NCBI GenBank assembly: GCA_028818755.1
Contig: JAPPNF010000167.1
Coordinates: forward strand, 62,001-126,000
Reading direction: 5' to 3'
DNA: 64,000 bases
Origin: Deltaproteobacteria bacterium
GTDB lineage: Bacteria; Desulfobacterota; Binatia; UBA9968; JAJDTQ01
Both the position numbers and the translations under genes were made by a program. The notes below the pieces were generated by a model, which was given only the letters and a program-made list of their open reading frames with translations, did not search any database and had not been told where the DNA came from. Of this stretch, positions 22,378-44,580 are shown one piece after another (positions within the stretch are counted from its first letter, which is position 1; each line of letters starts with the position of its first letter).

Positions 22378-23358
22378 TCAGTCCTTGCTGAGGAACCAGG
22401 TGACCAGGCTGTTGAACTCCTGCCACTGGTCCAGCCACAGGAAATGGTTGGCCTTGTCGAACACGTGCATCTGGGCGTCGGGGATGCGCTTGTACAGCTC
22501 CAGTCCGGGATCGACGCCCTTGTTGGAGTTCTTGCCCCACACCACCAGGGTGGGCCGGTCGATGTCCTTGACGTGGTCGCGGATGTGCTTGCCGTCGAAG
22601 CCGTACATGTCCGAGTGGCCGGCGAGGCCCTGGTCACCCCAGTACTCCTTGCCCTTGTGGTCCATGTACATCTTGTTCCACTTCTTGGAGAGGTCCATGA
22701 GGTAGTCCAGGAACTCCTCAGACACCATGGACTTGTCGTAGAAGAAGACGCCGGCGTACTTCCGCAGCCCTTCCCGGGTGTCGGTCAGACCCTCCTTGGG
22801 CATCATGCTGTTGGGCTCGAAGACTTCCTTGAAATAGGGAAGCTCGCCGGAGCCCACCTTCTGCTTCACGCCGTCGATCTCGACGTACTCCGGCGTCTCG
22901 GTGTCGTTCTCGGTCTTGAGGGCCGAGCCCGCGGTGCTGCCGCTGTCGATGAGGATGAGCTTCTTCACCAGGTCCGGGCGCTTCAGCGTGATGTAGGTGA
23001 CGATCCAGCCGCCCTGTGACTGGCCGGCCAGGTTGATGGGGCCGATGTCCAGCGCCTCGATGAAGCTGATGACGTGCTCGGCGCGGAACCGCACGTGCCC
23101 CAGCGTGTCCAGATCCCTGGGTGCATCGGTGTCGCCGTGTCCCAGCTCGTCGATGGCGTAAACGTGGAAATGCTCGGACAGCGGGATGACGTTCGGATAC
23201 CACCGGTACAGGCCCATGCCCACTTCGATGGAACCGCCGTGGACCAGGAGCAGCCGGTCGGCGTCCTTGTCGCCGGCTTCAACGTAATGAGTCCGGTAAC
23301 CGTCGGCGGTCACGAACTTGCTCTCGAACTTGTCGGGGCTGTTGAAAAGGGTCTCCAC
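22378..23358 (-). CDS. alpha/beta hydrolase, array 1 copy A
   Basis: 326 residues. The N-terminus LFNSPDKFESKF is shared with four paralogues here. Oxyanion region LVHGGS (39-43), nucleophile Ser114 in AGQSQGG and a late His305 in ANHFLWLD are present. The canonical acid site (G-x-x-D) reads GKNSNKGVD: Ser278 replaces Asp, with Asp283 nearby. The lid region between about 150 and 245 is long, as in meta-cleavage C-C hydrolases. Likely acts on a small ester, lactone or C-C bond; substrate unknown. Confidence 0.85.
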   Translation of the reverse strand: METLFNSPDKFESKFVTADGYRTHYVEAGDKDADRLLLVHGGSIEVGMGLYRWYPNVIPLSEHFHVYAIDELGHGDTDAPRDLDTLGHVRFRAEHVISFIEALDIGPINLAGQSQGGWIVTYITLKRPDLVKKLILIDSGSTAGSALKTENDTETPEYVEIDGVKQKVGSGELPYFKEVFEPNSMMPKEGLTDTREGLRKYAGVFFYDKSMVSEEFLDYLMDLSKKWNKMYMDHKGKEYWGDQGLAGHSDMYGFDGKHIRDHVKDIDRPTLVVWGKNSNKGVDPGLELYKRIPDAQMHVFDKANHFLWLDQWQEFNSLVTWFLSKD

Positions 23359-23401
23359 GGATTCCTCCTGTTGGATCTGCGCAGCGGGTCTCCCGCCGCG
23401 A

Positions 23402-24388
23402 TTAAGGCTTGGACAGATACCAGGTCACCAGGCTCACGAAATCCTTCGGGTGGTCGAGCCACAGGAAGTGGTTGGCCTTGTCGAAGATATGGAGCTGGGC
23501 GTCGGGTATGCGCTTGTAGAGGGCGAGTCCGGGATCGACGCCCTTGTTGGAGTTCTTGGCCCAGATGACCAGGGTCGGGGTGCGGATCTCGTGCACCCGG
23601 TCCCGGATGTGCGCGCCGTCGACGTAGAACTCCTTGGAGTGCTCCCTCATGTTGGTGTTGTCCCAGAACTCCTTGCCCTTGTGGGTGAAGTAGAGGTCGT
23701 TCCACTTCTGGGCGAACTTGTACAGATGCTCCACCCATTCGTCGGTGACCATGTGCTTCGCGTAGATGTAGGTGCTGACGAACTTGCGGATGCCCTCGCG
23801 GGTGCTGGTAAGGCCTTCCTTGGGGTGCATGGTGCCTTCTTCGAAGACTTCCTTCATGTAAGGCAGCACGCCGTCCTTCACCTGCACCATGGCGCCGTCC
23901 ACCTCAACCTGCCTAGGGGCGTCGGACTTCTCTTCGGTGTCGAGGGCCGAGCCCGCGGTGCTGCCGCTGTCGATGAGCACGAGCTTCTTGACCAAGTCGG
24001 GGCGCTTGATGGTGATGTAGGTGACGATCCAGCCGCCGGTGGATTGACCCACCAGGTTGACGGGACCGAGGTCCATGGCCTCGATGAAGCTGATGACGTG
24101 CTCCGCGCGTACGGTGGGCCGCCACAGGTCCGCGGTGTCCCGCGGCGGGTCGGTCTCGCCGTGGCCCAACTCGTCGATGGCGTAGACGTGGAACTTTTCC
24201 GCCAGCGGCAGCACCACCGGGTACCAGCGGTACAGGTCCATGCCGATGTCGATGCCGCCGCCGTGAACCAGCAGCAGGCTTTCGGGGTTGTCCTTGCCCG
24301 CCTCGACGTAATGGGTGCGATAGCCGTCGGCCGTGACGAACTTGCTCTCGAACTTGTCGGGACTGTTGAAAAGGGTCGGCGTTTCCAT
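23402..24388 (-). CDS. alpha/beta hydrolase, array 1 copy B
   Basis: 328 residues from ATG 24388 (METPTLFNSPDKF) preceded by GCGAGGCA. It is closely similar to copy A: LVHGGGIDIG, nucleophile Ser in GQSTGGW (Thr replaces Gln beside it), AKNSNKGVD at the acid position and ANHFLWLD at the His. It is upstream of copy A in the same direction with a 43 bp gap. A strong palindrome and a large inverted repeat separate it from the transporter receptor gene further upstream. Confidence 0.85.
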   Translation of the reverse strand: METPTLFNSPDKFESKFVTADGYRTHYVEAGKDNPESLLLVHGGGIDIGMDLYRWYPVVLPLAEKFHVYAIDELGHGETDPPRDTADLWRPTVRAEHVISFIEAMDLGPVNLVGQSTGGWIVTYITIKRPDLVKKLVLIDSGSTAGSALDTEEKSDAPRQVEVDGAMVQVKDGVLPYMKEVFEEGTMHPKEGLTSTREGIRKFVSTYIYAKHMVTDEWVEHLYKFAQKWNDLYFTHKGKEFWDNTNMREHSKEFYVDGAHIRDRVHEIRTPTLVIWAKNSNKGVDPGLALYKRIPDAQLHIFDKANHFLWLDHPKDFVSLVTWYLSKP

Positions 24389-24524
24389 CGGGTTGCCTCG
24401 CTGGGATAGTCTTGAAAGCCCGGAGGCGGCTGCCAGCCGGACTCGCAGCAGGCGCGGCGCGATCGTTGCCGCGCTGGTTTCGTGGGTGCGGCGCACCGCC
24501 GCACCGGCCAATTGTTTAGCCCCA

Positions 24525-24587
24525 AGCACCAACGCGCGTCAAACCGTCGGCTCGCGCCGGCTCCGGCTTGACGCGCGTTGTGTGCTG
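24525..24587. repeat. large inverted repeat with 17 bp arms
   Basis: The arm at 24530-24546 (CAACGCGCGTCAAACCG) is mirrored at 24564-24580 with one mismatch; outer AGCAC/GTGCT extend it. The loop is about 17 bp. It lies in the 274 bp gap between hydrolase B and the peptide-binding protein gene. Confidence 0.75.
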
Positions 24588-24611
24588 AGTGCCTGCGTTA
24601 CGGTGAATCCC

Positions 24612-24641
24612 GGTAGGGGCGACCGGCCGGTCGCCCCTACC
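24612..24641. terminator. perfect 30 bp palindrome 21 bp after the receptor gene
   Basis: GGTAGGGGCGACCGG is followed directly by its exact complement. The position, just past the stop of the minus-strand receptor gene (24663), suggests termination or mRNA-end stabilisation, but no T tract follows. The element also looks like a dispersed extragenic repeat. Confidence 0.5.
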
Positions 24642-24662
24642 CTCATTACAAACGAACCGTTC

Positions 24663-26213
24663 CTACTTGTCCAGCCAGGCGTGGGTCACGCCGCCGTCAG
24701 ACCAGCGCACGTCGCCGCGGCAGTTGGTCTTCATGTTCTTGAGGTGCGTGCGTGCCGCCTGGAAGATCGGCAGGTGCCCTACGAACAGGTGGGGCAGGTC
24801 CTGGTTGATCAGGTCCAGCGCCCTGCGGTAGATGGCCCTGCGCTTGGCGGGATCCGACTCCGTGCGGCCGTCATCCACGAGCTTGTTGTACTCGGCGTTG
24901 TCCCACTTGGCGTAGTTGTTCCTCTGACCCACGCGGAAGAACCGGTAGTACAGGCCGTCCGGGTCCGGAACGTAGGTGAGATGGCCGGGGTTCACGTCGA
25001 AGTCGTTCGCCCGCTGCCTCTTGGTATGCGCCGCACGGTCCATCACCTGGAATTTCAGGTTGATGCCGACCTTCTTGAGCTGAGCCTGCGCAAGGGTTGC
25101 CAGGTTCAGGATGACGGTCTCGTTTCGCACGATGGTCACCAGGTCCAGGCCCTTTTCGTGACCCGCCGCCTTCAGCAGCTCGCGGGCCTTGTCGAGATTC
25201 CCTTCCTTGTAGGGGTCCGGGACGTCCTTGAAATGCCACGTGGAGCCGGGATAGTACGGCTGCGCCTCCGCCGAGGCGATACCCCAGGTGATGCCGTCCA
25301 TCAGCGCCTGCTTGTCGATGGCGTATGCGATGGCCTGCCGCACGCGGATGTCCTTGAGGGGACCCTTGTTCAGGTTGAGGTTCAGGTAGAACCAGCGCGC
25401 GCCGGGCTTGAATGAAGGGGTGATTCCCTTGGGCGGCTTGTTCTTGATAGGCTGCGCCTGCTCGAACGGCACCGTCCAGACCCAGTCCAGGTCGCCGGCC
25501 CTCAGGGAGGTATAGCGCACGGTGTCGTCCAGGATCGGCCGCATCACGACCTCGTCCACGAACGGGAGCTGGTTCCCCTTGGCGTCCTTCTTCCAGTAGT
25601 TCTTGAACCGTTTCAGCTTCACGTGCTGCTTGGGCTGCCACTCCATGAACTCGAACGCGCCCGTGCCGATGGGCTTGGGCGGCTTGGACTCGAAGCTGTC
25701 CGAGTGGGTGATGAACGCCACCAGCGGACGGAACTTCACCAGGAATCCGTTGTCCGGCTTGGCTAGGATGAACTTGATCGTGTACTTGTCGACGACTTCC
25801 ATGCCCTTGATGGAGTTGAAGTTGCCGCGCCGCGGGGACTTGGTCTTCTTGTCCAGGAAGTGCGCGTAGTTCTTCTTCACGTCCTCGGCGGTCAGCTCCT
25901 TGCCGTTGTGGAACATGACGCCCTGGCGCAGGTGGAATGTGTAGGCCTTGCCGTCGTCGCTAATGTCCCAGGACTTGGCCAGGCCGGGCACGATGTCGCA
26001 CTTCTCGTCGTAGTCAACCAGGCTCTCGGCCACCAGGACGCCCATCTGTGCCGTGGGGTTGCCGACCGTGCGGTGCAGGTCCGGGGTATGCAGGTCGGCG
26101 TACATGCCGAGGGTCAGGGTCCCGCCGTACTTCTGCGCCGCCCCTTCGTTGGGAACGGCCAGGCCGAACGCCAGCAGCAGGGCGGCCAGCGAGAGCGAAA
26201 GCTTCGTACTCAT
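24663..26213 (-). CDS. peptide ABC transporter substrate-binding protein (SBP family 5), first transporter
   Basis: 516 residues from ATG 26213 with AAGGAGGAAACAG upstream. Signal peptide: basic start, hydrophobic LSLAALLLAFGLAV, cleavage near EGAA (about 26). The mature part has the family-5 features YGGTLTLGMY, LRQGVMFHNGKELTAEDV and IRVRQAIAYAID-type segments. It is encoded last in its operon (order C, D, F, B, receptor), just upstream of the two hydrolase genes. Confidence 0.92.
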   Translation of the reverse strand: MSTKLSLSLAALLLAFGLAVPNEGAAQKYGGTLTLGMYADLHTPDLHRTVGNPTAQMGVLVAESLVDYDEKCDIVPGLAKSWDISDDGKAYTFHLRQGVMFHNGKELTAEDVKKNYAHFLDKKTKSPRRGNFNSIKGMEVVDKYTIKFILAKPDNGFLVKFRPLVAFITHSDSFESKPPKPIGTGAFEFMEWQPKQHVKLKRFKNYWKKDAKGNQLPFVDEVVMRPILDDTVRYTSLRAGDLDWVWTVPFEQAQPIKNKPPKGITPSFKPGARWFYLNLNLNKGPLKDIRVRQAIAYAIDKQALMDGITWGIASAEAQPYYPGSTWHFKDVPDPYKEGNLDKARELLKAAGHEKGLDLVTIVRNETVILNLATLAQAQLKKVGINLKFQVMDRAAHTKRQRANDFDVNPGHLTYVPDPDGLYYRFFRVGQRNNYAKWDNAEYNKLVDDGRTESDPAKRRAIYRRALDLINQDLPHLFVGHLPIFQAARTHLKNMKTNCRGDVRWSDGGVTHAWLDK

Positions 26214-26306
26214 CTGTTTCCTCCTTGGTTTACTTCCTTTGCTTTGAAACCCGAAAAGAGTCCCATCACATATCTTGACCTTCGTGGTCAACCCCGAAAA
26301 TTCGAC

Positions 26307-27257
26307 CTACTCCAGCGTGATCCTCGGGTTGGCGTACTTGTAGAGGATGTCCACGAAGAAGTTCACCGTCACGAAAATCACCGCGAAAACGAGGATGAGC
26401 GCCTGCACCAGCGGATAGTCGCGGCTGTAGACCGCGCCCACCACCAGGCTGCCCACCCCGGGCCAGGCAAACACGTGCTCGACGATGACGGTGCCGCCGA
26501 GCAGGCGGCCGAACTGGAGGCCGATGACCGTGATGACCGGCACCAGGGCGTTCTTGAGCGTATGCTTGAAGATCACCCGCCGCTCGGCCAGGCCCTTGGC
26601 CCGCGCCGTGCGCACGTATTCCTTGCCGATCTCCTCCAGCATCTCCGAGCGGGTCATGCGCGCGACGATGGCGGCCATGCCCGTGCCCAGGGTGATGGAG
26701 GGCATGATCAGATACGACAACGTCGTCAAGGGAGCCGTGAAGGAGGCCTGGTAGCCGGACGCGGGCAGGATGGGAAAGTACAGGCTGAAGGCCAGGATCA
26801 GCAGGATGCCCAGCCAGAAGTTCGGAATCGAGATGCCCAGCAGCGCGAACGACATGGCGGTGTAGTCGCTGGCGGTGTTGCGCCGGATGGCGGCGATGAC
26901 TCCGGCGGGGATGGAGATCAGGATCGAGACGATGGTGGCGAAGATCGTGAGCAGGATGGTGGCCGGGAAACGCTCGACGATCAGTTCCAGGTTCGACCGG
27001 TGGTAGTGGATCGACTCGCCGAAATCGCCCAGGAGGACCTTGCCTATCCACACCAGGTACTGCACGTACAGCGGCTTGTCGAGGCCGAGGATCTTCTCGA
27101 AATCGGCACGAACGGACGGGTCGGCAAGGTCCTCGGTCGCGAAGATGAAGTCCACCGGGTCTCCCGGAATCATGTGCAGCAGGGAGAAGACGATGACCGA
27201 CACCAGGAAGAGCACCGGAATGAGGATCAGCAGACGTTGGATGATGTACTGGCGCAA
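26307..27257 (-). CDS. peptide ABC transporter permease (DppB type), first transporter
   Basis: 316 residues with the DppB N-terminus MRQYIIQRLLILIPVLF, periplasmic-loop motifs LGLDKPLYVQYL and GDFGESIHY, and the EAA loop RAKGLAERRVIFKHTL. About six membrane helices. The gene starts 20 bp after the OppF-type ATPase and is followed by the receptor gene. Confidence 0.93.
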   Translation of the reverse strand: MRQYIIQRLLILIPVLFLVSVIVFSLLHMIPGDPVDFIFATEDLADPSVRADFEKILGLDKPLYVQYLVWIGKVLLGDFGESIHYHRSNLELIVERFPATILLTIFATIVSILISIPAGVIAAIRRNTASDYTAMSFALLGISIPNFWLGILLILAFSLYFPILPASGYQASFTAPLTTLSYLIMPSITLGTGMAAIVARMTRSEMLEEIGKEYVRTARAKGLAERRVIFKHTLKNALVPVITVIGLQFGRLLGGTVIVEHVFAWPGVGSLVVGAVYSRDYPLVQALILVFAVIFVTVNFFVDILYKYANPRITLE

Positions 27258-27277
27258 TGCGGTCCTTCCTTACCGGG

Positions 27278-28249
27278 TCAACGCATGTGGCAGGCCACCT
27301 GGCGCCCGCCCGACTTTCTCTCCAGCGGCGGCTCCAGCTCGCCGCACACCGGCTCGGCGATGGGGCAGCGTCCGCGAAACACGCACCCCGGCGGCCGGTC
27401 GATGAGGTTCACCATCTCCCCCTCCAGGACCCGGGGCCGGAACTCCCGGCTGGGGTCCGGCTCGGGGATGGCCGACACCAGCGCTTCCGTGTATGGATGG
27501 GCCGGCTTGTCGAACAGGTCCTCCACCGCACCCACCTCGACGATCTTGCCGCCGTACATCACCGCCACCCGCTCGCAGAAATAGTCCACCACGCTCAGGT
27601 CGTGTGCGATGAACAGGTAAGTCAACCCCTTGGTCCGCTGCAGTTGCCGGAATAGGTTGAGGATCTGCGCGCGCACCGAAACGTCCAGGGCCGACACCGC
27701 CTCGTCGGCGATGATAAGGTCCGGCTCCAGCGCCATGGCCCGGGCGATGCTGATGCGTTGGCGCTGGCCGCCGCTGAACTCATGGGGATAGCGGTCCCGG
27801 TGCTCCGCCTGGAGACCCACCATCTCCAGCAACTCCACCACCCGGTCCCGCACCTGGTTGGCGGGAACGATGTTGTGGAGCTTGATCGGGTTGCCGAGGA
27901 TGTCCCGCACCCGCATACGCGGGTTCAGTGACGTGTAGGGATCCTGAAACACCATCTGGATGCGGCGGCGGAACTTGTGGAAGGCGGAGCGGGGCATCTC
28001 CAGGATCTCCTGTCCGTCGAAGTGCACCTTGCCGCGGGTGGCGTCCACCAGCCGCGTTATCAGCCGGGCGGTGGTGGACTTGCCGCTGCCGCTTTCCCCC
28101 ACCAGTCCGAAGGTCTCGCCTTTCTCAATGGAGAAGTTGATCCCGTCCACCGCCTTGAGCTCCGCTCCCTTGCCGCCGAACAGCGAGAAGAACGAAGTCA
28201 GCGAGAAATACTTCGCCAGGTCGTCGACTCTGAGAATTTCTTCCCGCAT
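27278..28249 (-). CDS. peptide ABC transporter ATP-binding protein (OppF/DppF type), first transporter
   Basis: 323 residues: Walker A GESGSGKS (about 51-58), signature FSGGQRQRIS, Walker B LIIADEAVSALD (Ala replaces the usual Pro after Glu) and the C-terminal RPPGCVFRGRCPI motif. An insertion FFSLFGGKG before the first strand is common in OppF. Seven bases separate it from the OppD-type gene. Confidence 0.93.
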   Translation of the reverse strand: MREEILRVDDLAKYFSLTSFFSLFGGKGAELKAVDGINFSIEKGETFGLVGESGSGKSTTARLITRLVDATRGKVHFDGQEILEMPRSAFHKFRRRIQMVFQDPYTSLNPRMRVRDILGNPIKLHNIVPANQVRDRVVELLEMVGLQAEHRDRYPHEFSGGQRQRISIARAMALEPDLIIADEAVSALDVSVRAQILNLFRQLQRTKGLTYLFIAHDLSVVDYFCERVAVMYGGKIVEVGAVEDLFDKPAHPYTEALVSAIPEPDPSREFRPRVLEGEMVNLIDRPPGCVFRGRCPIAEPVCGELEPPLERKSGGRQVACHMR

Positions 28250-28256
28250 GACGTCC

Positions 28257-29225
28257 TCAAGCCGTGTGGAGATGACAGGCCACCTGCCTGCCCTTGGCCG
28301 TGGCGAGGCGCGGATCCTCGCTCGCGCACACGTCCATGGCCTGGTCGCACCGGGGCCGGAAGTTGCAGCCCTGGGGCGGGTCGAGCAGGTTGCACACCAC
28401 GCCGGGTATGGGGTCCAGCAGCCGGTCGCGCTCGCCCCGGCGCGGCAGCGCCCGCAGGAGCCCCTGGGTATACGGGTGGAATGGGTTCTCGAAGATGGAC
28501 TTCCGGTCCGCCAGCTCCACGATGTTGCCGGCGTACATGACCGCGATGTGGTCGCACAGCACCGCGGCCACGCCGAGGTCGTGGGTGATGAAGATCAGCG
28601 ACTTGCCCAACTGCTCCAGCAGTTCCCGCAGCAGGTCGAGGATCTGCGCCTGTATGGTCACGTCCAGGGCGGTGGTGGGCTCGTCGGCGATCAGCAGGTC
28701 CGGGTTGCACGCCAGCGCGATGGCGATCATGACTCGCTGGCGCATGCCGCCGCTGAACTCGTGGGGATAGCTGTCGAGCCGCTCGTGGGGATTGGGGATG
28801 CCCACCTTGTTGAGCATGTCCTCGGCGCGCTCGTAGGCATCCTTTTTCCGCAGGCCCTCGTGGATCACGTATCCCTCCGCCACCTGGTCGCCGACGGTGT
28901 AGGCAGGGTTCAGCGCCACCATGGGTTCCTGGAAGATCATGGAGATGCGGCTGCCGCGGTAGGAGCGCATCTCCGGCTCCGTCTTGGTCAGCAGGTCCTC
29001 GCCCTTGAACAGGACCTGTCCGTTGGTGATCCGGCCCGGCGGTTGCGGCACGAGCCGCATGAGCGAGAGCGCCAGCACGCTCTTGCCGGAGCCGGTCTCG
29101 CCGACGATGCCCAGCGTCTGCCCCTCTTGCAGTTGGAACGACACCCGGTCCACCGCGGTGAGGATTCCCTTGCGGAGAAAGAAACGGGTCTCCAGGTCCC
29201 GGACGTCCAGGAGCGGCTCAGGCAC
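28257..29225 (-). CDS. peptide ABC transporter ATP-binding protein (OppD/DppD type), first transporter
   Basis: 322 residues from a GTG at 29225 with GAGGA 8 nt upstream; another GTG at 29240 has no ribosome site. Walker A GETGSGKS (about 43-50), signature FSGGMRQRV, Walker [12 protein letters not shown] and the [12 protein letters not shown] motif. It overlaps the permease stop by 8 bp, so translation is coupled. Confidence 0.92.
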
Positions 29226-30135
29226 TGGACCGTTCCTCACTCAGGCGGGGGTCCAGGACATCGCGGAGGCCGTCACCCAGAAGGTTGAGTCCCAGCACGG
29301 AAAAGCAGATGGCCAGCCCCGGGAAGATGGCGGCCCAGGGATAGAACTCCATGATGGAGCGGGCCTCGTGGAGGATGCTGCCCCAGCTCGGGGTGGGCGG
29401 CGGCACGCCGATGCCCAGGAAGCTCAACGACGCCTCGGCGATGATGGCGTGGGCGAAGTCCAGGGTCGCCTGCACCAGCACCGGGGCCATGCAGTTGGGC
29501 AGGATCTGGCGGAACAGCACCCGAAGGTTGGATTCCCCCTGCACCATGGCCGCTTCCACGTACTCCTTCTCGCGTTCCTTGAGCACCGAGGCCCGCACCA
29601 GACGGGCGAAGTTCGGCGTGTAGCGTATGGCCAGGGCGATGCACACGTTGGTGAGGGACGCGCCCAGGGCGGCCATCAGCGCGATGGCCAGCAGAAGTCC
29701 CGGAAACGCCATCACCGCGTCCATGATGCGCATCAGCACGTTGTCCAGGGTCCGGCCGGCGAAACCCGACACCGCGCCCAGGAAGATCCCTGCCGCCAGC
29801 GCCAGGGTGACGGAGCCGAGCCCGGCGATGACCGAGATGCGCGCGCCGTAGATCACCCGCGAGAAGATGTCGCGTCCGAAGGTATCGGTGCCGAAGGGGT
29901 GCTCCGCCGACAGCGGCACAAGCCGCGCCGTCAGGTCCACTTCATCGGGGTCGTAGTAGGCGATCTGGGGAGCGAACAGGGCGACCACGAAGACGAACGC
30001 TACGAACACCAGTCCAGCCACCGCCATGCGGTTCTCCGAGAACCGCACCAACCAGTCGCGGACCGATGCGAAGGCGCCGCCGACGCGGCCGATTCCGTTT
30101 ATGGTCGTTGCTTCAGCACCTGTGCCGTTGGACAT
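29218..30135 (-). CDS. peptide ABC transporter permease (DppC type), first transporter
   Basis: 305 residues from ATG 30135 (MSNGTGAEA). N-terminal helix VAGLVFVAFVFVVALF, FGTDTFGRDIFSRVIYGAR after it, and an EAA-type loop AAMVQGESNLRVLFRQILPN. About six membrane helices. It is the first gene of the 24-gene minus-strand run; the 128 bp divergent gap to 30264 carries the operator-like palindromes of the DUF4143 gene. Confidence 0.92.
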   Translation of the reverse strand: MSNGTGAEATTINGIGRVGGAFASVRDWLVRFSENRMAVAGLVFVAFVFVVALFAPQIAYYDPDEVDLTARLVPLSAEHPFGTDTFGRDIFSRVIYGARISVIAGLGSVTLALAAGIFLGAVSGFAGRTLDNVLMRIMDAVMAFPGLLLAIALMAALGASLTNVCIALAIRYTPNFARLVRASVLKEREKEYVEAAMVQGESNLRVLFRQILPNCMAPVLVQATLDFAHAIIAEASLSFLGIGVPPPTPSWGSILHEARSIMEFYPWAAIFPGLAICFSVLGLNLLGDGLRDVLDPRLSEERSSA

Positions 30136-30250
30136 GAAGAGTCCTTGCGACCCTTGAGCCGCCGAACAGTAATGGGTCCACATATCGCCTTCGCCGGACC
30201 GCCGTCAAGGAGATTCGACGTGGACCGGACTTGTGCTGATCTGGCTAGCA

Positions 30251-30287
30251 ATTCATGGTGTGAATGGATATCATTCATGGCGTGAAT
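30251..30287. promoter_or_regulatory. twin ATTCA-N5-TGAAT palindromes over the start of the DUF4143 gene
   Basis: Two nearly identical 15 bp palindromes, ATTCATGGTGTGAAT (30251-30265) and ATTCATGGCGTGAAT (30273-30287), are centred 22 bp apart, about two helix turns, so a dimeric regulator could bind both on one face. They overlap the ATG at 30264. The pattern is read directly; a regulatory role is inference. Confidence 0.55.
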
Positions 30288-31502: not shown

Positions 31503-31555
31503 CACGGCCGGTTTGCTGCGCCGACGGTGAACCGCATCATCACGAATAGCCGCAC

Positions 31556-35501: not shown

Positions 35502-35535
35502 GGCAAGCCGTCCACAAGACATTCACGGGAGATTC

Positions 35536-36594
35536 ATGGTGATTCGTATCGGCGTCATCGGCGTGGGATTTGGTGCGAAGGTGCAGGCTCCGGCCTTCCA
35601 GGACGAAGGCTTCGAGGTGACGGCCATCTGCTCGCGGAGGGAGGAGCGGGCCCGGGAGGCGGCGGCGAGCCTGGGCATTCCGCACGCGTACACCGACTAT
35701 CGGGAGATGCTGGAGCAGCCGGACCTGGACGCGGTGAGCATCGTGACGCCTCCCAACCTCCATCACGACATGACCGCGGCGGCGCTGGACGCGGGCAAGC
35801 ACGTGCTGTGCGAGAAGCCGTTCGCCATGGATGAGGCCGAGGCCAGGGCCATGCTCGACATGGCCCGCGGCACCAGCATGACCGCCATGGTTGCCCACGA
35901 GTTCCGCTTCGCCCCGGCCCGGGCTTACGTCAAGGAGTTGCTGGAGCAGGGCTACATCGGCGATTTCCAGAGCGCGTCCGTGACCCTTTTCATGAGGGGC
36001 GGGCCGCCCGGCGGCCGCCCCGGTTTCGACTGGCGCCAGCAGTACTCCTACGGCGGCGGGCAACTGGGAGGGCTGGGGTCCCACTACATCGATTGCCTGC
36101 GGGACTGGTTCGGCGACGTCGCCAGCGTCAGCGGCCGGGTGTTCACGCCGGAGGACGGCGCCCACGGCGGCGACACCTCCGACGACGCTTTCGGACTGCT
36201 CATGAGTTTCGCCAAGGGTGGTTGGGCGTCGCTGGCCGCAAACTTCTCCGCGCCCCTGGGGTCGAAGGTGCGGATGGAGATCCACGGTTCCGAGGGGAGC
36301 CTGAGCCTCTCCCACGGAGGCCCCAATCCGCCGCCCGACGGCACCGTGTTCGGGGCGCGGCACGACGAGGACAAGGAATTGCACGAGTTGCCGGTGCCGG
36401 AGCGGTTCGCCGTGGCGTCGGACGAGCGGGACGCGCGCCTGGGCGCCTTCCGGGTCCTGGCCGGAAGGTTCCGCCGCGGCATCGAGGAGGGCACTTCGCC
36501 CACCCCCAACTTCGAGGACGCCTACCGCTGCCAGCAGATCATGGACGCCGTGCGCTTCGGCGGCGCCGGCCAATGGGCGGAGTTGGGGAAGTAG
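35536..36594 (+). CDS. Gfo/Idh/MocA family oxidoreductase
   Basis: 352 residues. Rossmann motif GVIGVGFGAKVQ at the N-terminus, AVSIVTPPNLHHDMTAAALDAGKHVLCEKPFA (the conserved Glu-Lys-Pro near residue 95), and a C-terminal beta-sheet dimer domain. These enzymes oxidise or reduce cyclic polyols and sugars with NAD(P). The upstream gap is 34 bp, so it is probably co-transcribed with the amidohydrolase. Confidence 0.9.
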   Translation: MVIRIGVIGVGFGAKVQAPAFQDEGFEVTAICSRREERAREAAASLGIPHAYTDYREMLEQPDLDAVSIVTPPNLHHDMTAAALDAGKHVLCEKPFAMDEAEARAMLDMARGTSMTAMVAHEFRFAPARAYVKELLEQGYIGDFQSASVTLFMRGGPPGGRPGFDWRQQYSYGGGQLGGLGSHYIDCLRDWFGDVASVSGRVFTPEDGAHGGDTSDDAFGLLMSFAKGGWASLAANFSAPLGSKVRMEIHGSEGSLSLSHGGPNPPPDGTVFGARHDEDKELHELPVPERFAVASDERDARLGAFRVLAGRFRRGIEEGTSPTPNFEDAYRCQQIMDAVRFGGAGQWAELGK

Positions 36595-36600
36595 ATAGCG

Positions 36601-36700
36601 TCCTTCGACTTCGCTCCGCTACGCTCAGGACGAACGGGTCGATTTCCAGCCACCGTTCGTCCTGAGCGTAGCGGAGCGCCAGCGGAGCGAAGTCGAAGGA
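36601..36700. repeat. dispersed inverted repeat (TCCTTCGACTTCGC family), full copy
   Basis: Left half 36601-36636 and right half 36654-36700 are reverse complements apart from an insertion of AGCGGAGCGCC type, so the element forms a long cruciform. Partial or variant copies occur at 52745-52806 and 56632-56682. Confidence 0.85.
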
Positions 36701-36743
36701 CGCAAGTATCCGACAGGCTCCGACGAGTCCAAGGAGTCCCGCC

Positions 36744-37892
36744 ATGGCGAAGAACGGCTTCAAGGTGCTCGACAGCGACATGCACGTTTTCGAGCCTCAC
36801 GACCTGTACCTCAAGTACATGGACCCGGAGTGGGGCGACCGGATCCCGCGGGGTGAGCCGCGCAGGCGGCACGGGCAGATCCGCTTCACTTTCGCCGACG
36901 GCACGCCGGTGCGGCCCGGCGGCTCGGGGCTCCGATCGCCCCGGGGCGCTCAGGAGCAGCGGTTCGAAAAGGTGGCGCCCCACTACCGGAACTCGCTGGA
37001 GCGGGACTACGATCCGGTGTCGCAACTCGACGCCATGGACGTGGAAGGACTGGACGTGGCCGTGCTGTTCCGCACGTTTCCCTTGCACTGCGACGACGGC
37101 CTGGAGGGCGAGTACGCGATGGCGCTGTGCCGCGCCTGGAACGACTGGATCTTCGACTTCTGCAAGGAGAACCCCGCGCGGATGAAGTTCGCGGCGCTGA
37201 TCACGCTCCACGACGTGGACCTGGCGGTGGAGGAGGCCCGGCGCGCGGCGGAGGAGCTCGGGGCCGCGGGGCTGTGCCTGGTGCCGGAACCGGTCAACGG
37301 CAACCACATCCACGACCATTGCTTCGATCCATTATGGGCCCAGGCGGAACGCTCCGGAGTGCCCATCTGTTTTCACCCGGCAGGCTTTCCAAGGCAGGAG
37401 CACGCGGCGCTTCGCTTCGTCGGGCATCCGAACGACGGTTTCCTGGTCAGCACCTACAGCAAGGCGCTGGAGCTGATGATGGCCATCGGCAGCTTCTGCG
37501 GCGGCGGGGTTCTGGAGCGCTTCCCGCGCTTGCGGGCGGTCTTCCTGGAGGGCAACTGCAGTTGGCTGCCGTGGCTGCTCTACCGCATGGACGAGCGCTG
37601 GAGCGACCGCAAGGACCAGCTCGACGAGCCCCTGAGCCGTCCGCCCAGCGATTACTTCATGCGCCAGTGCTTCGTTTCCGTGGATCCGGACGAGAGGCTC
37701 GTCACCGACGTCATCAGCCGGGTGGGAGACGGCAACCTCGTGATCTCCACCGACTATCCGCACGACGACGCCCACTGGCCCCACGCCATGGAGACGTTCC
37801 TCGGCATCGACGGGGTCACGGACGCCTCGCGGCGGAAGATCCTGTGGGACAACTGCGCCCGTCTCTATGATGTGACCGGCCCGGAAGGCTGA
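36744..37892 (+). CDS. amidohydrolase family protein (Amidohydro_2 type)
   Basis: 382 residues; ATG with AAGGAGTCCCGCC upstream. The metal motif is VLDSDMHVFEPHDLY, followed by YDPVSQLDAMDVEGLDVAVLF, PICFHPAG with a metal His, LRAVFLEGNCSWLPWLLYRMD and STDYPHDDAHWPHA with the metal Asp. This closely fits the metal-dependent decarboxylase/hydrolase branch. It is separated from the preceding gene by the inverted repeat. Confidence 0.88.
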   Translation: MAKNGFKVLDSDMHVFEPHDLYLKYMDPEWGDRIPRGEPRRRHGQIRFTFADGTPVRPGGSGLRSPRGAQEQRFEKVAPHYRNSLERDYDPVSQLDAMDVEGLDVAVLFRTFPLHCDDGLEGEYAMALCRAWNDWIFDFCKENPARMKFAALITLHDVDLAVEEARRAAEELGAAGLCLVPEPVNGNHIHDHCFDPLWAQAERSGVPICFHPAGFPRQEHAALRFVGHPNDGFLVSTYSKALELMMAIGSFCGGGVLERFPRLRAVFLEGNCSWLPWLLYRMDERWSDRKDQLDEPLSRPPSDYFMRQCFVSVDPDERLVTDVISRVGDGNLVISTDYPHDDAHWPHAMETFLGIDGVTDASRRKILWDNCARLYDVTGPEG

Positions 37893-37917
37893 CGACACTT
37901 CAGCCCGTCCCCACCCC

Positions 37918-37970
37918 TGAATTCCGGCCCCGTATCAAGTACGAGGCAGGCTTTTCGCCGGAATGACGGG
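37918..37970. repeat. extragenic repeat, decayed palindrome
   Basis: ATTCCGGC at 37921-37928 pairs with GCCGGAAT at 37960-37967 around a spacer, a variant of the dispersed ATTCC-type palindromes. It sits in the 106 bp gap before the M24 peptidase gene. Confidence 0.5.
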
Positions 37971-37998
37971 GTCGGGGCATTGCAGGGACTGACTTCTC

Positions 37999-39222
37999 AT
38001 GCTCACCCGCTACGCACGCGGCACCTTCAGCGTCGATTGGGAGGACCGCTACGATTTCCCCGGGCTGCGGCGCAAACGCGTCGAGAAGGCCCAGCGCGAG
38101 CTGGCGAATTCCGATCTCTCGGCGCTGCTCCTGTGGAAGGACGAGAACGTCCGCTACCTCACGAGCCTCCGGGCGCAGCTCATCACCGGCAAGACCACCG
38201 CGCTCAACGGCGTGCTGCTGGCAAAGGGCGAGGAGCCGATCCTCCTCTGTTCCGGCGGCGAGCACGACAAGGCGCGCTTCGGCATGCCTTGGCTGTCGAG
38301 CGTCCACACCATCCCCATCATGGAGCAGCGGGAGCTCACGGATGGTTTCGTCACTTCCGTGCTGAAGCCGCTGCTGAGCGACCTCAAGCTCACGGGCGGT
38401 CGCGTCGGCATCGACCAGGCGCCGCTGTGCCTCATCGAGTCGTTGCGGAAGCATCTCCCGGAGATCGAGGCCGCCGACGGCGACGTGGTCATGCAGCGGG
38501 CGCGCTGGGTCAAGCTCGACGAGGAGATTGCGGTCATCGAGGAGTCCTGCGCGCTGGGCGACAGCGTCACCCAACGGGCGCTGGACGAGACCCGCGCCGG
38601 ACGCCGCGAATGCGAGGTGGCCGGCGACGCCATGCAGACGCTTTTCCATCTCGGCGGGGAGATGGCGCACGTGATCACGCCCTACGTGGCCTCGGGCGAG
38701 CACATGTCGCCGCCGCACCGCATCTGCACCGACAAGATCATGCGCAACGGCGACCTCTGCTTCATCGACATCGGCGCCATGTGGAACGGCTACTTCGCCG
38801 ACATTGGACGCACCACCATCGTCGGCAAGCCCACCCGCCGGCAGAAGGAGATCTACACCGCGGTCTACGAGGGGCTCATGGCGGGCATCGAGCGCATGCG
38901 GCCGGGCAACACCAACACGGATGTGTCCGACGCCATCGTCGCCCGCATCGGACGCTACGGCTTGGCCGACCATCTGTTCAGCCTGTTCATCGGCCACGGC
39001 ATCGGCATGGGCGCCAACGAGCCGCCCTACATCGGCGAGACGCTCCCCGGCGCCACCGTCTTCGAGCTCCAGCCCAACATGGTCTTCGCCGTGGAACCGC
39101 TGGTGTGGGTCCCCGGCGTCCGGGGCGGCGGCGGCGTGCGCATCGAGGACATGGTGCTGGTGACCGAGGACGAGCCGCACATCCTCTCGCGGGTCGAGTA
39201 CGAAGACCGGCTGTTGCTCTAG
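37999..39222 (+). CDS. M24 family metallopeptidase (Xaa-Pro aminopeptidase/creatinase-like)
   Basis: 407 residues. N-terminal creatinase-like domain (about 1-165), then the pita-bread catalytic domain with dinuclear metal ligands visible as Asp in FIDIGAM, Asp in FADIGRT, His in IGHGIGMG, Glu in AVEPLVW and Glu in RIEDMVLV. It could be an aminopeptidase or an amidinohydrolase/DMSP-lyase-like relative; the context with amidohydrolases favours a catabolic function. Confidence 0.88.
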   Translation: MLTRYARGTFSVDWEDRYDFPGLRRKRVEKAQRELANSDLSALLLWKDENVRYLTSLRAQLITGKTTALNGVLLAKGEEPILLCSGGEHDKARFGMPWLSSVHTIPIMEQRELTDGFVTSVLKPLLSDLKLTGGRVGIDQAPLCLIESLRKHLPEIEAADGDVVMQRARWVKLDEEIAVIEESCALGDSVTQRALDETRAGRRECEVAGDAMQTLFHLGGEMAHVITPYVASGEHMSPPHRICTDKIMRNGDLCFIDIGAMWNGYFADIGRTTIVGKPTRRQKEIYTAVYEGLMAGIERMRPGNTNTDVSDAIVARIGRYGLADHLFSLFIGHGIGMGANEPPYIGETLPGATVFELQPNMVFAVEPLVWVPGVRGGGGVRIEDMVLVTEDEPHILSRVEYEDRLLL

Positions 39223-39235
39223 CCCGACCGTTAAA

Positions 39236-39345
39236 CCCCTCTCCCTCTGGGAGAGGGTGGCCGAAGGCCGGGTGAGGGCGCCGCGGTCTTCCCGCCTTTC
39301 CGGATACCCTCACCCCAACCCTCTCCCAAAGGGAGAGGGGGTCGG
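39236..39345. repeat. extragenic repeat with CCCTCTCCC/GGGAGAGGG arms
   Basis: CCCCTCTCCCTCTGGGAGAGGG (first hairpin, 39236-39257) and CCCTCTCCCAAAGGGAGAGGG (39320-39340) frame a GGTGAGGG / CCCTCACC pair. Its translation produces a spurious N-terminal extension of the next gene. Confidence 0.7.
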
Positions 39346-39400
39346 AGGACGACGAAACGAACGGTTTGCCGAACCGGTGCTGACTTGGTTTATTTGGCGT

Positions 39401-40312
39401 ATGATGTCAGCGGGTTCTGCGGCATGGCGACGGGTAAGCACCGCATCGCGTGGTCTAGCCCTGGGTGCGCTTGTGGGGGTTTTGTTCGCGTCAAGCGTCG
39501 CCGCGGGAGAAGGCCGGCTGCAGCTCGATTACAGGGGCTACTTTGGCCGCGTGCACGGCGCCAACCTGGGGTTGACCGTCAAATTCGACACGGCTGCATA
39601 TGATTCCGATGCGGCCGCGTATGATCTCCGCGCGACGGCGTATGCTGTGCAGGTGAGCCTGAAGACCACCGGTCTGGCCAAGATCGCGCGCTGGAAGGCG
39701 ACGGCGTATTCGCGTGGCACGCTTCTTTCGGGGGAGGTGGTGCCGGTCCGGGCGGGCTACCGGAGCAAGCAATGGACCAGGAAGCGTTTGGTGGAGCTCG
39801 GCTTCGATGAAGGAACGCCCAAGCTCGTGCGCATGAAGCCCCGCAAGAAGTCCAAGGTTCCCCCCTCCCAGCTCAAGGGAGCGCTCGATCCCGCCGGCGC
39901 CTTGCTGGCCGTGCTTTCCCGTGTCGACGCGGGCCGGGTGTGTGAGCTGCGTATTCCCGTCTTTGACGGTCGCCGTCTCTACGAGCTCGTGGGGGAGATG
40001 GACGGGGACGGTGCCGGACGGCTCCGGGCCGGGCGCTACTCACCGTTCGCCGGTCCCACGGTGGACTGCCGCGTGCGGCTCGAAAGGAAGGCGGGATTCA
40101 AGAGGAAAACCGGCGACGCGGGAAAACGCGACGACACCCCGATACATCTCCGGATGGGGCGCGTGTTCGACGAGGTGCCGCCGGTGCCGGTGCGCTTCAC
40201 TGCCGACACCCGGTACGGCTCCGCGGCCGTGTACCTCCACCGGGGCAGGCTGGCCGCCGACGGCTTGAAGCGGGAACTGCGCCCCCGCCACGGCAGGAAA
40301 CGCCGGCGCTAG
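39401..40312 (+). CDS. DUF3108-like secreted protein
   Basis: 303 residues from ATG 39401 (MMSAGSAAW); the frame extends upstream only through the extragenic repeat. Signal peptide with hydrophobic LALGALVGVLFASSVAAG. The mature part matches the DUF3108 outline: LDYRGYFGRVHGANLGL, AYSRGTLLSGEVVPVRAGYRS, LDPAGALLAVL and a C-terminal LRMGRVFDEVPPVPVRF. An in-frame 21 bp repeat near 39590-39655 yields three AYD/AYA heptads. Function of the family is unknown, likely envelope-associated. Confidence 0.75.
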   Translation: MMSAGSAAWRRVSTASRGLALGALVGVLFASSVAAGEGRLQLDYRGYFGRVHGANLGLTVKFDTAAYDSDAAAYDLRATAYAVQVSLKTTGLAKIARWKATAYSRGTLLSGEVVPVRAGYRSKQWTRKRLVELGFDEGTPKLVRMKPRKKSKVPPSQLKGALDPAGALLAVLSRVDAGRVCELRIPVFDGRRLYELVGEMDGDGAGRLRAGRYSPFAGPTVDCRVRLERKAGFKRKTGDAGKRDDTPIHLRMGRVFDEVPPVPVRFTADTRYGSAAVYLHRGRLAADGLKRELRPRHGRKRRR

Positions 40313-40328: not shown

Positions 40329-41549
40329 TTAGTCAGACTTCTTCTCGCCCTGCTCCGGGCCGCCCTCCGCCCATCTCATCGCTGCGAACGCCCCCGCTCC
40401 GAAGACCGCGAAAGCGGAAATCTGAGCATACATGGTGCCGTCGAAAGTCAGGCCCACGAACGCCCCGAACGGCACCGCGACGAAGGTAGGGAGCGAAGCA
40501 ACCACCGCTGCTCCCACTCCGGCGATGTGGCCCAGCGGCTCCATGGCGAGGGCGTTGAGATTGCCGAAGAGAAGTCCGAAGCAGACGAAGACGACCAGCA
40601 GGCAGGCCATGAACAGCCACAACGGGGGAAGCCCGTCGAAGGCGAAGGCCAGCGCCCATGCAACCACGGAGACCAGCGTGACGGACACCGCCGCCGCCCT
40701 CGTGATCCGGCGCATCCCGTACCTCAACACCAGGCGGGCGTTCATGAGCGAAGCGCCTCCGATGGCCAGCGCCAGCGCGCCGAAATAGACCGGGAAGAGG
40801 GCGCCGACCCCGTAGGCTTCCTGGAAGATCTGCTGGGCAGTGCTCAGGTAGGCGATGAACGGCGCGAACGCACAGGCGGTGGCGAGGATATATCCGCGCG
40901 CGGTCCGAATCCTCAGGACTTCCAGCACGGCTCCGCCGACGGCCCGCGGCGAGAGGGATCGCCGGCGGGCGGCGGGCAGGGTTTCCGGCTGCCGAAGCGC
41001 AAGCCAGGCGAATCCGATGGCGGCGACGACGAAGAACGTCACAAATATCGCCCGCCAGCCTGCCAGCCACTGGAGGCCCTGTCCAAGGGCCGGAGCGACC
41101 GTGGGAACGAGGACGAACACCGCGATGGCGAACGACATGAGGCGAGCCATCTGCCGTCCCTCGTACTGATCGCGCACCAGGGCGATGATCACGATGCGCG
41201 GCCCCGCCGCACCGAAGCCCTGCACGATGCGGCTCGCGATCATCACCTCGAAGACGGGAGCGAAGACGCTCATGAGGCAACCCGCCATGTACAGGCCGAG
41301 GCCGGCATGGATGGCGGGTTTGCGCCCGAAACGGTCGGAGAGCGGGCCGAAGACGATCTGGCCGAGGGCGAGCCCGAAGAGCATGGCCGTGACGACGAAC
41401 TGGACATCATTCCGGCGCGGCGCCCCGAGGTCGTGACCTATGGCGGGCAACGCCGGCAGCATCGCGTCGGTCGTGAGCGCGGGGAGCGACATCAACAGGG
41501 CGACGAGGCCCAGGAATTCGCCGGCACGAAGCGCGGTCGTGCGACTCAA
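40329..41549 (-). CDS. MFS multidrug transporter, Bcr/CflA type
   Basis: 406 residues, about twelve membrane helices. Between helices 2 and 3 is the MFS motif GPLSDRFGRKPAIHAGLGLY; PALTTDAMLPALPAIGHDLG near the N-terminus and ARIVQGFGAAGPRI-like sequence in helix 4 are Bcr/CflA features. It is downstream of three hydrolase genes (72 bp) and probably shares their transcript; export of a product or import is possible. Confidence 0.9.
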   Translation of the reverse strand: MSRTTALRAGEFLGLVALLMSLPALTTDAMLPALPAIGHDLGAPRRNDVQFVVTAMLFGLALGQIVFGPLSDRFGRKPAIHAGLGLYMAGCLMSVFAPVFEVMIASRIVQGFGAAGPRIVIIALVRDQYEGRQMARLMSFAIAVFVLVPTVAPALGQGLQWLAGWRAIFVTFFVVAAIGFAWLALRQPETLPAARRRSLSPRAVGGAVLEVLRIRTARGYILATACAFAPFIAYLSTAQQIFQEAYGVGALFPVYFGALALAIGGASLMNARLVLRYGMRRITRAAAVSVTLVSVVAWALAFAFDGLPPLWLFMACLLVVFVCFGLLFGNLNALAMEPLGHIAGVGAAVVASLPTFVAVPFGAFVGLTFDGTMYAQISAFAVFGAGAFAAMRWAEGGPEQGEKKSD

Positions 41550-41621: not shown

Positions 41622-42605
41622 CTACTCTTTCCCCAGGAACCACGTCGCCAGGTTGTTGAAGTCCTCGGGTTGGTCCAGCCATATGAAGTGGCTCGCCTTG
41701 TCGAAGATGTGCATCTGGGCGTTGGGGATGCTCTTGTAGAGGTCGTAGCCGGGGTCGATGCCCTTGTTGGAGTTGCGGCCCCACATGACCAGGGTCGGGA
41801 CGCTGATCTTGTGGACGTGGTCGCGGATGTGGGCGCCGTCGAAGTAGTACATCTCGCTGGCGCCCTGCATGCCGTTCTTAGCCCAGTACTCCTTCCCCTT
41901 GTGCCTCATGTAGAGGTCGTTCCAGCGGGCGGAGAGTTCCATCAGGTGGTCCAGGTACTCCTCGGTGACCATGTCCTTGTTGTAGACGAAGGCTCCGACG
42001 TACTTGCGGAGGCCCTCCCGGGTGTTGGTGAGCCCCTCCTTGGGCATCATGGTGCCGGGCTCGAACACGTCCTTGAAGTAGGGGAGGTCGCCGCTGCCGT
42101 CCACCTCCACCTGCTGGCCGTCCACCTCGATGACCTGCCGCCCCTCGCCCGGCTTGCGGATGCCCGACCCCGCGGTGCTGCCGCTGTCGACCAGGATCAG
42201 CTTCTTCACCAGGTCCGGCCGCTTGATGGTGATGTAGGTGACGATCCAGCCACCCTGGGACTGGCCGATGAGGTTTACGGGAGCCAGGTCCAGGGCCTCG
42301 ATGAAGCTGATGACGTGGTCGGCGCGCACACGCACGTGGCCCAGGTCGTCCAGGTTGCGCGGCGGGTCGGTCTGGCCGTGTCCCAGCTCGTCGACGGCGT
42401 AGACGTGAAGGTGCTCGCCCAACGGAACGATGTTCGGGTACCAGCGGTAGTTCCCCATGCCGATCTCGTTGGCGCCGCCGTGGCACATGACGACCCGTTC
42501 CGGGTTGTCTTCGCCGGCCTCGATGTAGTGGGTCTTGTAACCGTCCGCGGTGACGAAACGGCTGTTCCATTTGTCCGGACTGTTGAAGATGGTGGGCCTT
42601 TCCAT
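41622..42605 (-). CDS. alpha/beta hydrolase, array 2 copy C
   Basis: 327 residues. Same family as the hydrolases at 22378 and 23402: NSPDKWNSRF start, CHGGANEIG oxyanion region, nucleophile Ser in GQSQGGW, His in ASHFIWLD. The acid position reads GRNSNKGID, again Ser instead of Asp. It follows copy D after only 3 bp. Confidence 0.87.
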   Translation of the reverse strand: MERPTIFNSPDKWNSRFVTADGYKTHYIEAGEDNPERVVMCHGGANEIGMGNYRWYPNIVPLGEHLHVYAVDELGHGQTDPPRNLDDLGHVRVRADHVISFIEALDLAPVNLIGQSQGGWIVTYITIKRPDLVKKLILVDSGSTAGSGIRKPGEGRQVIEVDGQQVEVDGSGDLPYFKDVFEPGTMMPKEGLTNTREGLRKYVGAFVYNKDMVTEEYLDHLMELSARWNDLYMRHKGKEYWAKNGMQGASEMYYFDGAHIRDHVHKISVPTLVMWGRNSNKGIDPGYDLYKSIPNAQMHIFDKASHFIWLDQPEDFNNLATWFLGKE

Positions 42606-42608
42606 TGA

Positions 42609-43592
42609 CTAATCCTCCTTGGTGACGAACCAGAGCACGAGGTCGTTGAAGTCCTGAACCTGGTCCCACCAGCAGAAGTGGCTGGCCTTGTCCAGGATAT
42701 GCATCTGCGCGTTGGGCATGCGCTTGTAGAGCTCGTACTGCGGGTCGATGCCCTTGACCGAGTTCTTGCCGGCGATGAACAGCGTCGGGTTCTTGATCCG
42801 GTGGACGTGGTCGCGGATGTGCTTGCCTTCGAAGAAGTACATGTCGTGGTGGCCCTTGACGTCCTGGTTGTCCCAGAACTTCTTGCCCCTGTGTTCCAGG
42901 TAGAAGGCGGTCCAGCGCCTGGAGGTTTCCTCTAGGTAGTCCACGTACTCGTCGGTGACCATGGAGTGGTCGTAGGCGAAGGTCTCCGTGTACATGCGGA
43001 TGCCGTCTCGGGTGTCCAGCAGCCCTTGCTTGGGCAGCATGGTGCCGGGCTCGAAGATCTTCTTGAAGTACGGCAGCTCGCCGCCTCCGGTCCGGATATT
43101 CTCGCCGTCGATCTCCTGGACGTCGCCGACGTCGTTCTCCGCGCCGGTCTTGAAGCCCGACCCCGCGGTGCTGCCGCTGTCCACCAGCACGAGCCTCTTC
43201 ACCAGGTCCGGGCGGGTAATGGTGATGTAGGTGACGATCCAGCCGCCCTGGGACTGTCCGCACAGGTTGACGGGCGCCAGCCCCTTTTCCTCGATGAAGC
43301 GGATGACGTGCTCCGCGCGCACGCGCACGTGGCCCAGGTCGGCGATGTCCCGCGGCGGGTCGGTGAAGCCGTGCCCCAGCTCGTCGACGGCGAACACGTG
43401 GAGCCTCTCGGCCAGCGGCAGAACCGTGGGGTACCAGCGGTAAAGGCCCGCGCCCAGGGCGGCGCTGCCGCCGTGCACCAGCACCAGCCGGTCGTTGGCC
43501 GGGTCCCCGGCCTCGATGAAATGGGTCTTGTAGCCGTCGATGGTCTCGTCGTGCTTCTTGTACTTGTCCGGGCTGTTGAACAACGTCTCCAC
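42609..43592 (-). CDS. alpha/beta hydrolase, array 2 copy D
   Basis: 327 residues from a GTG at 43592 with GAGGAGGTAAGCAA upstream; this gives the family start METLFNSPDKYK. Nucleophile Ser in GQSQGGW, His in ASHFCWWD, acid site GKNSVKGID. It is the most diverged copy (FIAGKNS). It lies between copies E (13 bp) and C (3 bp). Confidence 0.86.
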   Translation of the reverse strand: METLFNSPDKYKKHDETIDGYKTHFIEAGDPANDRLVLVHGGSAALGAGLYRWYPTVLPLAERLHVFAVDELGHGFTDPPRDIADLGHVRVRAEHVIRFIEEKGLAPVNLCGQSQGGWIVTYITITRPDLVKRLVLVDSGSTAGSGFKTGAENDVGDVQEIDGENIRTGGGELPYFKKIFEPGTMLPKQGLLDTRDGIRMYTETFAYDHSMVTDEYVDYLEETSRRWTAFYLEHRGKKFWDNQDVKGHHDMYFFEGKHIRDHVHRIKNPTLFIAGKNSVKGIDPQYELYKRMPNAQMHILDKASHFCWWDQVQDFNDLVLWFVTKED

Positions 43593-43605
43593 TTGCTTAC
43601 CTCCT

Positions 43606-44580
43606 CTACTCCTTCTCGATGAACCACTCCACCAGCGCGTTGAAGTCCCGCCACTGGTCCAGCCAAAGGAAGTGGTTGGCCTTGTCGAGGATGTGCATCT
43701 GGGCATTGGGGAACATCTTGTAGAGCAGGTACCCCATGTCGAGCCCCTTGTTGGAGTTCTTTCCCCACACCACGAGCGTCGGCGTCTGGATCCTGTGCAC
43801 GTGCTCGCGGATGTGCTTGCCGTCGATCTCCAATTGTCGGCGCTGGCCGGCCAGGGTCTGCTTGGCCCAGTATTTCTCGCCCCGGTGTTCGTCGTAGAGT
43901 TGGCTCCACCTGCCCGACAGCTCCATCAGGTGGTCGAGGAACTCCTCGCTGACCATGGACTCGTCGTAGAAGAATGCGCTGGCGTACTGACGTACGCCCT
44001 CCCGGGTGTCGGTCAGCCCCTTCTTGGGGCGCATGGTGCCGGGTTCGAACAGCACCTTCTGGTACGGCAGTTCCTGGGTGTCGCCGGATATCGCGACTCC
44101 GTCCACCTCGGTGGTCGTGGTCTGCAATGACGCCACCTCCGCGGGCCGCCCGGCGGTGCTGCCGCTGTCGATGAGGATCAGCTTCCGGACCAGGTCGGGC
44201 CTCAGGAGCGTGATGTAGGTGACGATCCAGCCTCCCTGGGACTGGCCGGCGAGGTTGACCGGGCCGATCCCCAAGGTCTCGATGAAGTTCAGCACGTGGT
44301 CCGCGCGCACCCGGATGTGGCTCAGTTCGTCGAGGTTCCGGGGCGGGTCGGTGTAGCCGCTGCCCAGCTCGTCGATGGCGAACACATGGAACTTTTTCGC
44401 CAGCGGGATGATGTTGGCGTACCAGCGGTAGCAACCCATGCCCACCTCGATGGCGCCGCCGTGCACCAGCACCAGCTTCTGGGGGTTTCCTTCCCCCGCC
44501 TCGATGTAGTGGGTCTTGTAGCCGTCAACCGTGGCGAACTGGCTCTTGAACTTGTCGGGACTGTTGAACAGGGTCTCCAT
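43606..44580 (-). CDS. alpha/beta hydrolase, array 2 copy E
   Basis: 324 residues from ATG 44580 with GAGGAGGCATCTCC upstream. LFNSPDKFKSQF start, VHGGAIEVG, nucleophile Ser in GQSQGGW, His in ANHFLWLD, acid site GKNSNKGLD. It is the first gene of array 2; the 120 bp upstream region (44581-44702) should hold the promoter of E-D-C-MFS. Confidence 0.87.
   Translation of the reverse strand: METLFNSPDKFKSQFATVDGYKTHYIEAGEGNPQKLVLVHGGAIEVGMGCYRWYANIIPLAKKFHVFAIDELGSGYTDPPRNLDELSHIRVRADHVLNFIETLGIGPVNLAGQSQGGWIVTYITLLRPDLVRKLILIDSGSTAGRPAEVASLQTTTTEVDGVAISGDTQELPYQKVLFEPGTMRPKKGLTDTREGVRQYASAFFYDESMVSEEFLDHLMELSGRWSQLYDEHRGEKYWAKQTLAGQRRQLEIDGKHIREHVHRIQTPTLVVWGKNSNKGLDMGYLLYKMFPNAQMHILDKANHFLWLDQWRDFNALVEWFIEKE

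Follow-up and report, generated by a model that had tools for sequence, protein, structure and literature searches.

The window, that is, the whole stretch of 64,000 nucleotides analysed here, carries five alpha/beta hydrolase genes in two arrays, A (copies A1 and A2) and B (copies B1 to B3), and all five reading frames are open (Table 1). Pairwise identity among the encoded proteins is 55.2–68.2%, the DNA has a G+C content of 64.9%, and Pfam Abhydrolase_1 matches every copy (E 4.5e-19 to 7.6e-23). The proteins have the core fold of the alpha/beta hydrolases, with the nucleophile elbow after strand 5 and a His after strand 8. The initial annotation, made from the sequence alone, had described five such hydrolases with Ser at the usual acid position, and this description was borne out in all five copies, as were the motifs it listed: GQS[QT]GGW around the nucleophile, [NS]HF at the His, G/A-[KR]-N-S at the acid position and a late conserved Asp in KG[VIL]D. 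The shared start LFNSPDK was found in four of the five copies and reads IFNSPDK in B1.

Table 1 Hydrolase genes and neighbouring features in the window
Feature	Position	Strand	Remarks
A1, alpha/beta hydrolase (Ser113, Asp137, Ser277, Asp282, His304)	22378..23358	-	326 aa, start GTG, acid position GKNS
A2, alpha/beta hydrolase paralogue	23402..24388	-	328 aa, start ATG, acid position AKNS
B1, alpha/beta hydrolase paralogue	41622..42605	-	327 aa, start ATG, acid position GRNS
B2, alpha/beta hydrolase paralogue	42609..43592	-	327 aa, start GTG, acid position GKNS (GKNSVKGID)
B3, alpha/beta hydrolase paralogue	43606..44580	-	324 aa, start ATG, acid position GKNS
Peptide-type solute-binding protein (SBP_bac_5, PF00496), upstream of array A	24663..26291	-	E 9.5e-95
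Rest of peptide-type ABC importer (two permeases, two ATPases)	26307..30183	-	read from translations
Cupin, VOC/glyoxalase and acyl-CoA dehydrogenase genes, downstream of array A	20187..22300 (approximate)	-	domain scan; likewise beside array A in L011
HisD-like (histidinol-dehydrogenase-like), SDR, cyclase (PF04199) and GntR-type regulator, further downstream	16388..20064	-	HisD-like and cyclase scanned; SDR and GntR from translations
MFS transporter close to Bcr/CflA, downstream of array B	40329..41549	-	197.4 bits, just under the cut-off of 200.9 bits

At the place where relatives carry the strand-7 catalytic Asp, all five copies have N-S, and HMMER aligned the Ser of this pair with the Asp of HsaD (WGREDR) and of DxnB2 (GKND), in the column of the MehpH strand-7 acid. 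Each copy has L[IV]L[IV]DSGSTAG in the stretch that follows strand 6. We next compared the five copies with 11 relatives, six of them from APA_bin_73, one from RHO1_bin_74, one each from an uncultured Rhodospirillales MAG and a Pseudoxanthobacter soli MAG, and two from Rhizobium plasmids. Among these 16 distinct sequences Asp137, directly after strand 6, is invariant (A1 numbering, counted from the residue after the start), and the nucleophile Ser113, Ser277 and the late Asp282 are each likewise found in 16/16. His304 is present in all 15 rows that reach its column, the remaining row stopping at a contig end, and lies in the motif [NSD]HF or NHY. For these rows MAFFT and hmmalign agree at Ser113, Asp137, Ser277 and Asp282. 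In AlphaFold models of two of the five copies, A1 and B2 (mean pLDDT 82.9 and 83.8), strand 5 spans residues 107–112 with Ser113 next, strand 6 spans 130–136 with Asp137 immediately after it, strand 7 spans 269–274 with Ser277 in the following loop, a helix begins at 281 with Asp282 in its first turn, and strand 8 ends at 299, before His304. In the class to which we assign the family, an Asp or Glu directly after strand 6 bonds to the His and is essential, and the strand-7 place needs no acid; at these two positions all 16 sequences have Asp137 and Ser277.

The meta-cleavage product hydrolases HsaD, DxnB2, BphD, CarC, CumD and MhpC were among the best neighbours in both sequence and fold, and the NCBIfam HsaD model matched the five copies (E 4.7e-24 to 1.8e-33). 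An Asp after strand 7 and a Trp after the catalytic His are diagnostic of meta-cleavage product hydrolases. The aligned rows of HsaD, DxnB2 and CumD have a Gly after strand 6 (LVLMG in HsaD and DxnB2), an Asp at the strand-7 place, a GNS nucleophile and a GHW His, whereas the family has Asp137, Ser277, GQS and Phe or Tyr after the His. Scores against the curated equivalog models were also far below the cut-offs (84.8–115.8 versus 400 bits for HsaD, and 53.1–77.3 versus 462.15 bits for BphD), and we rejected membership in the HsaD/BphD group. The monoalkyl phthalate hydrolase MehpH (8hgv, 8hgw) was rejected as well, in view of the Ser that the family has in its Asp259 column (Asp in the apo chain 8hgv, Asn in the complex chain 8hgw); conversely, at the site of Asp137 MehpH carries a Ser.

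A wider set of fetched loci gave 53 distinct matches, and after a fragment (L044) was dropped, 52 rows remained: 16 carry an acid only after strand 6, 27 carry one at each place, seven only after strand 7 and two at neither (states read from MAFFT, as hmmalign displaces four of the two-acid rows by one position and does not align several of the weak ones). Four loci of the window's own genome (L006–L009) are among the two-acid rows, and one of them, L007, matches MehpH at E 5e-37. By itself a strand-6 Asp proves no catalytic role, because 27 other rows have it and yet keep the strand-7 Asp.

Precedents for an acid in this place exist. The report on ZenA from R. erythropolis, a zearalenone lactonase, describes a triad Ser128-His303-Asp153 with Asp153 in the loop after strand 6; its D153A/L/N variants were inactive, whereas D264A/L/N, altered in the canonical range, remained active (PMC10913051). 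The strand-6 Asp of the family stands at this published alternative position, and the spacing from Ser to acid is similar (25 residues in ZenA, PMC10913051, and 24 in the five copies). According to the same paper, swapped acids have also been engineered (PMC10913051), and a classification paper describes migration of the acid to strand 6 in many alpha/beta-hydrolase clusters (PMC11878206). ZenA differs from our copies in having a second Ser directly after the nucleophile (PMC10913051), where all five copies have Gln or Thr, and none of the 55 PDB sequence matches at E 1e-5 was named ZenA, judging by the match names. Two further cases suggest that a triad acid can be less important than one would expect: in lysates, marginal activity was left in ZenA-Scfl D137A (PMC10913051), and MehpH, with a triad Ser125-Asp259-His291, was used as a D259N mutant to obtain the complex (PMC9977937), for which its authors suspected weak activity (PMC9977937).

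We consider it very probable that the products of the five genes are active serine hydrolases with the triad Ser113-His304-Asp137. They would fall into the meta-cleavage-hydrolase/MehpH part of this fold, and their triad acid would lie directly after strand 6 instead of strand 7, Ser277 marking the vacated acid position and Asp282 opening the next helix without being part of the triad. An acid after strand 6, as in known subfamilies, was the very alternative that the initial annotation had named against its own reading; the invariant Asp137, which had been overlooked, fits it. Haloalkane dehalogenases of subfamily II (LinB, DhaA) likewise have the triad acid after strand 6. Haloalkane dehalogenases use an Asp nucleophile (PMC10503415), in contrast to the Ser of the five copies. 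We infer that Asp137 pairs with His304 and that the reaction is hydrolysis: His304 would activate Ser113, Ser113 would attack the acyl bond of what is presumably an ester, a lactone or a similar compound, with water then freeing the product. The enzymes would work without an acid at the strand-7 place; most likely they are ordinary functional enzymes, and their family is small and patchily distributed. To our knowledge, no activity has been described for any of its members; a literature search for relocated catalytic acids found none, searches on BphD residues and on DhlA acid-swap mutants brought nothing useful, and the family itself has no name under which to search. If the assignment is right, the family would add to the instances of moved catalytic acids, within a region of the fold in which the solved relatives in the aligned rows keep the ordinary position. 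For annotation it would be a reminder that an enzyme lacking the strand-7 Asp is not for that reason dead or exotic.

The late Asp had been proposed as the new acid, and conservation does not separate it from Asp137, both being found in 16/16. Asp282 might serve as the triad acid by way of a remodelled loop after strand 7, and it fits such a role that its position is variable in the two-acid rows and that the loop is one residue shorter in the family than in those rows. Still, the aligned residue is Arg in DxnB2 and Asp in HsaD (PLDGAL), where it coexists with the ordinary acid, and residue 282 lies in the first turn of the helix in both models; in addition, Asp137 offers an acid position documented for ZenA (PMC10913051). 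For these reasons we ranked Asp282 below Asp137 and regard it as an unlikely triad acid. Invariant in the family and variable in the two-acid rows, Asp282 is a family trait, which is no indication that it took over from the acid. It seems about as improbable, or slightly more so, that the family catalyses a different reaction needing no triad acid, such as that of a lyase or transferase. The fold does include non-hydrolytic members, according to the classification paper (PMC11878206), but the family conserves the nucleophile Ser, the His and a carboxylate following strand 6, and nothing positive points toward other chemistry.

We also considered whether the copies are inactive paralogues that keep only the fold. 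This would agree with the reduction of array B to a short chimera in the same-genus genome G110 and with the lack of a full copy at E 1e-60 in six of the nine genomes of the genus, with at most 15 candidates scored per genome. However, dN/dS in same-genus orthologue pairs, which cover each of the five copies, was 0.069, 0.064, 0.102, 0.159, 0.116 and 0.053 (six of six pairs), and these orthologues are thus under purifying selection for every copy; the two Rhizobium copies gave a similar value (0.079). With Ser113 and Asp137 kept in 16/16 and His304 in every row that reaches it, inactivity is very unlikely. The earlier view of the conserved copies as functional enzymes with a re-wired acid survives in part: they look functional and the acid has probably moved, but the late Asp as its new location is probably wrong. 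Four paralogue pairs had dN/dS of 0.34–0.64, a hint that change sped up once the genes had duplicated, although dS may be lowered by codon bias in DNA this rich in GC. In the cap (residues 144–262) the five copies share 48.9% identity on average, compared with 71.2% and 65.4% in the core parts. Because the cap diverges most, the copies likely have different substrates; they would share the same machinery and probably act on several related compounds. Orthologues group by copy in the tree, which indicates that the copies arose before these species separated.

The tree was built without the acid-state columns. The 16 family rows form a single clade (100/100); a different clade contains all 27 two-acid rows, with one strand-7-only row among them. 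In the best tree these two clades are not sisters, and the row nearest to the family is L039 (92/79), on a long branch. A clade of all rows with a strand-6 Asp was unsupported in the best tree, yet was not rejected (p-AU 0.226), and the deep order is unsure because of the long branches. A two-acid intermediate, represented by the MehpH-like paralogues of the same genome, is possible but is not seen in the tree. We can only tentatively suggest that an ancestor like these paralogues had both acids and that the strand-7 one was later lost, given that the two clades are not sisters and that L039 has Asn at both places. If true, enzymes in three states (with the acid after strand 7, after both strands or after strand 6) would be available for comparison, and for the two-acid ones it could be asked which acid does the work; these apparent two-acid paralogues would make the order of steps in the acid switch testable by mutation. 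L039 itself (265–1140) is a hydrolase on a Natronosalvus rutilus plasmid, its Asn residues lying after strand 6 and at the strand-7 place. In the window's own genome, a frame from position 1411 of L010 (C35) encodes an alpha/beta hydrolase in which Val follows strand 6 and Asn takes the place of the strand-7 acid, hence with an acid at neither according to MAFFT.

Within its own genus, the locus is conserved in part. In APA_bin_73, a second species, array A is flanked on both sides as in the window, and array B on its upstream side, the contig breaking off within the B1 copy; because the arrays and flanks recur there, the arrangement is more than chance. A fourth hydrolase, absent from the window, is found at array B of this genome (L012, 3609–4577). 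RHO1_bin_74 retains B3 and its upstream flank up to the contig end. In G110, what is left of array B is a stretch of about 70 codons from the start of B3 that runs into the final codons of B1, before the conserved MFS gene (L044, 1501–1743, on G110:C199), apparently the result of a deletion between tandem copies. There (L070) the MFS gene is followed by sequence like window positions 33833–31558 and then 17111–11002. When window positions 17112–31557 and 33834–39501 were compared with L070, the block of array A and the peptide importer was not at that place, and no long DNA matches to the array A block were found there.

The family looks rare and patchy within reach of these searches. In the class of the window's genome it was detected at E 1e-60 in 3/148 genomes, its own included, all from one genus (3/9 genomes), with at most 15 candidates scored per genome. 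Searches around two other carriers returned only the already known genome in each case: one of 397 genomes in the order of G149 and one of 385 in the class of G148 (both at E 1e-45, best five candidates per genome), one of three in the family of G149 (E 1e-40) and one of 398 in its phylum (E 1e-40, best five candidates per genome). Plasmids contributed two of 72,556 records at E 1e-30. Two exact peptide patterns, which relatives without the patterns would escape, recovered 74 stretches from genome contigs and five relatives among them.

The initial annotation had also paired each array with transport. As gene order this is correct, with array A after the peptide-type ABC importer and array B before the MFS carrier, and a Rhizobium relative lies directly after genes annotated as an ABC permease and a substrate-binding protein. 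As to its meaning, the pairing is only a hint, because the relatives at L014 and L015 show no peptide-type ABC importer in the stretch read. The Rhizobium leguminosarum relative is near genes annotated as catechol 1,2-dioxygenase, SDR, 3-keto-5-aminohexanoate cleavage protein and cupin, L014 has an SDR and a TauD-like gene close by (as judged from the sequence), and L015 has nothing obviously related nearby. Inferring a substrate from the neighbour sets of array A, Rhizobium, L014 and L015 was judged too weak and set aside. Between the arrays lie two genes of the amidohydrolase-2 family (PF04909; window 34017–35501 and 36744–37892). Finally, a palindromic repeat of ~100 bp with a strong predicted hairpin is located at window positions 21860–21959, with partial copies near 18657–18697 and 45215–45259; among the matches listed, genomes of the genus hold at least dozens of copies at ~79–88% identity.
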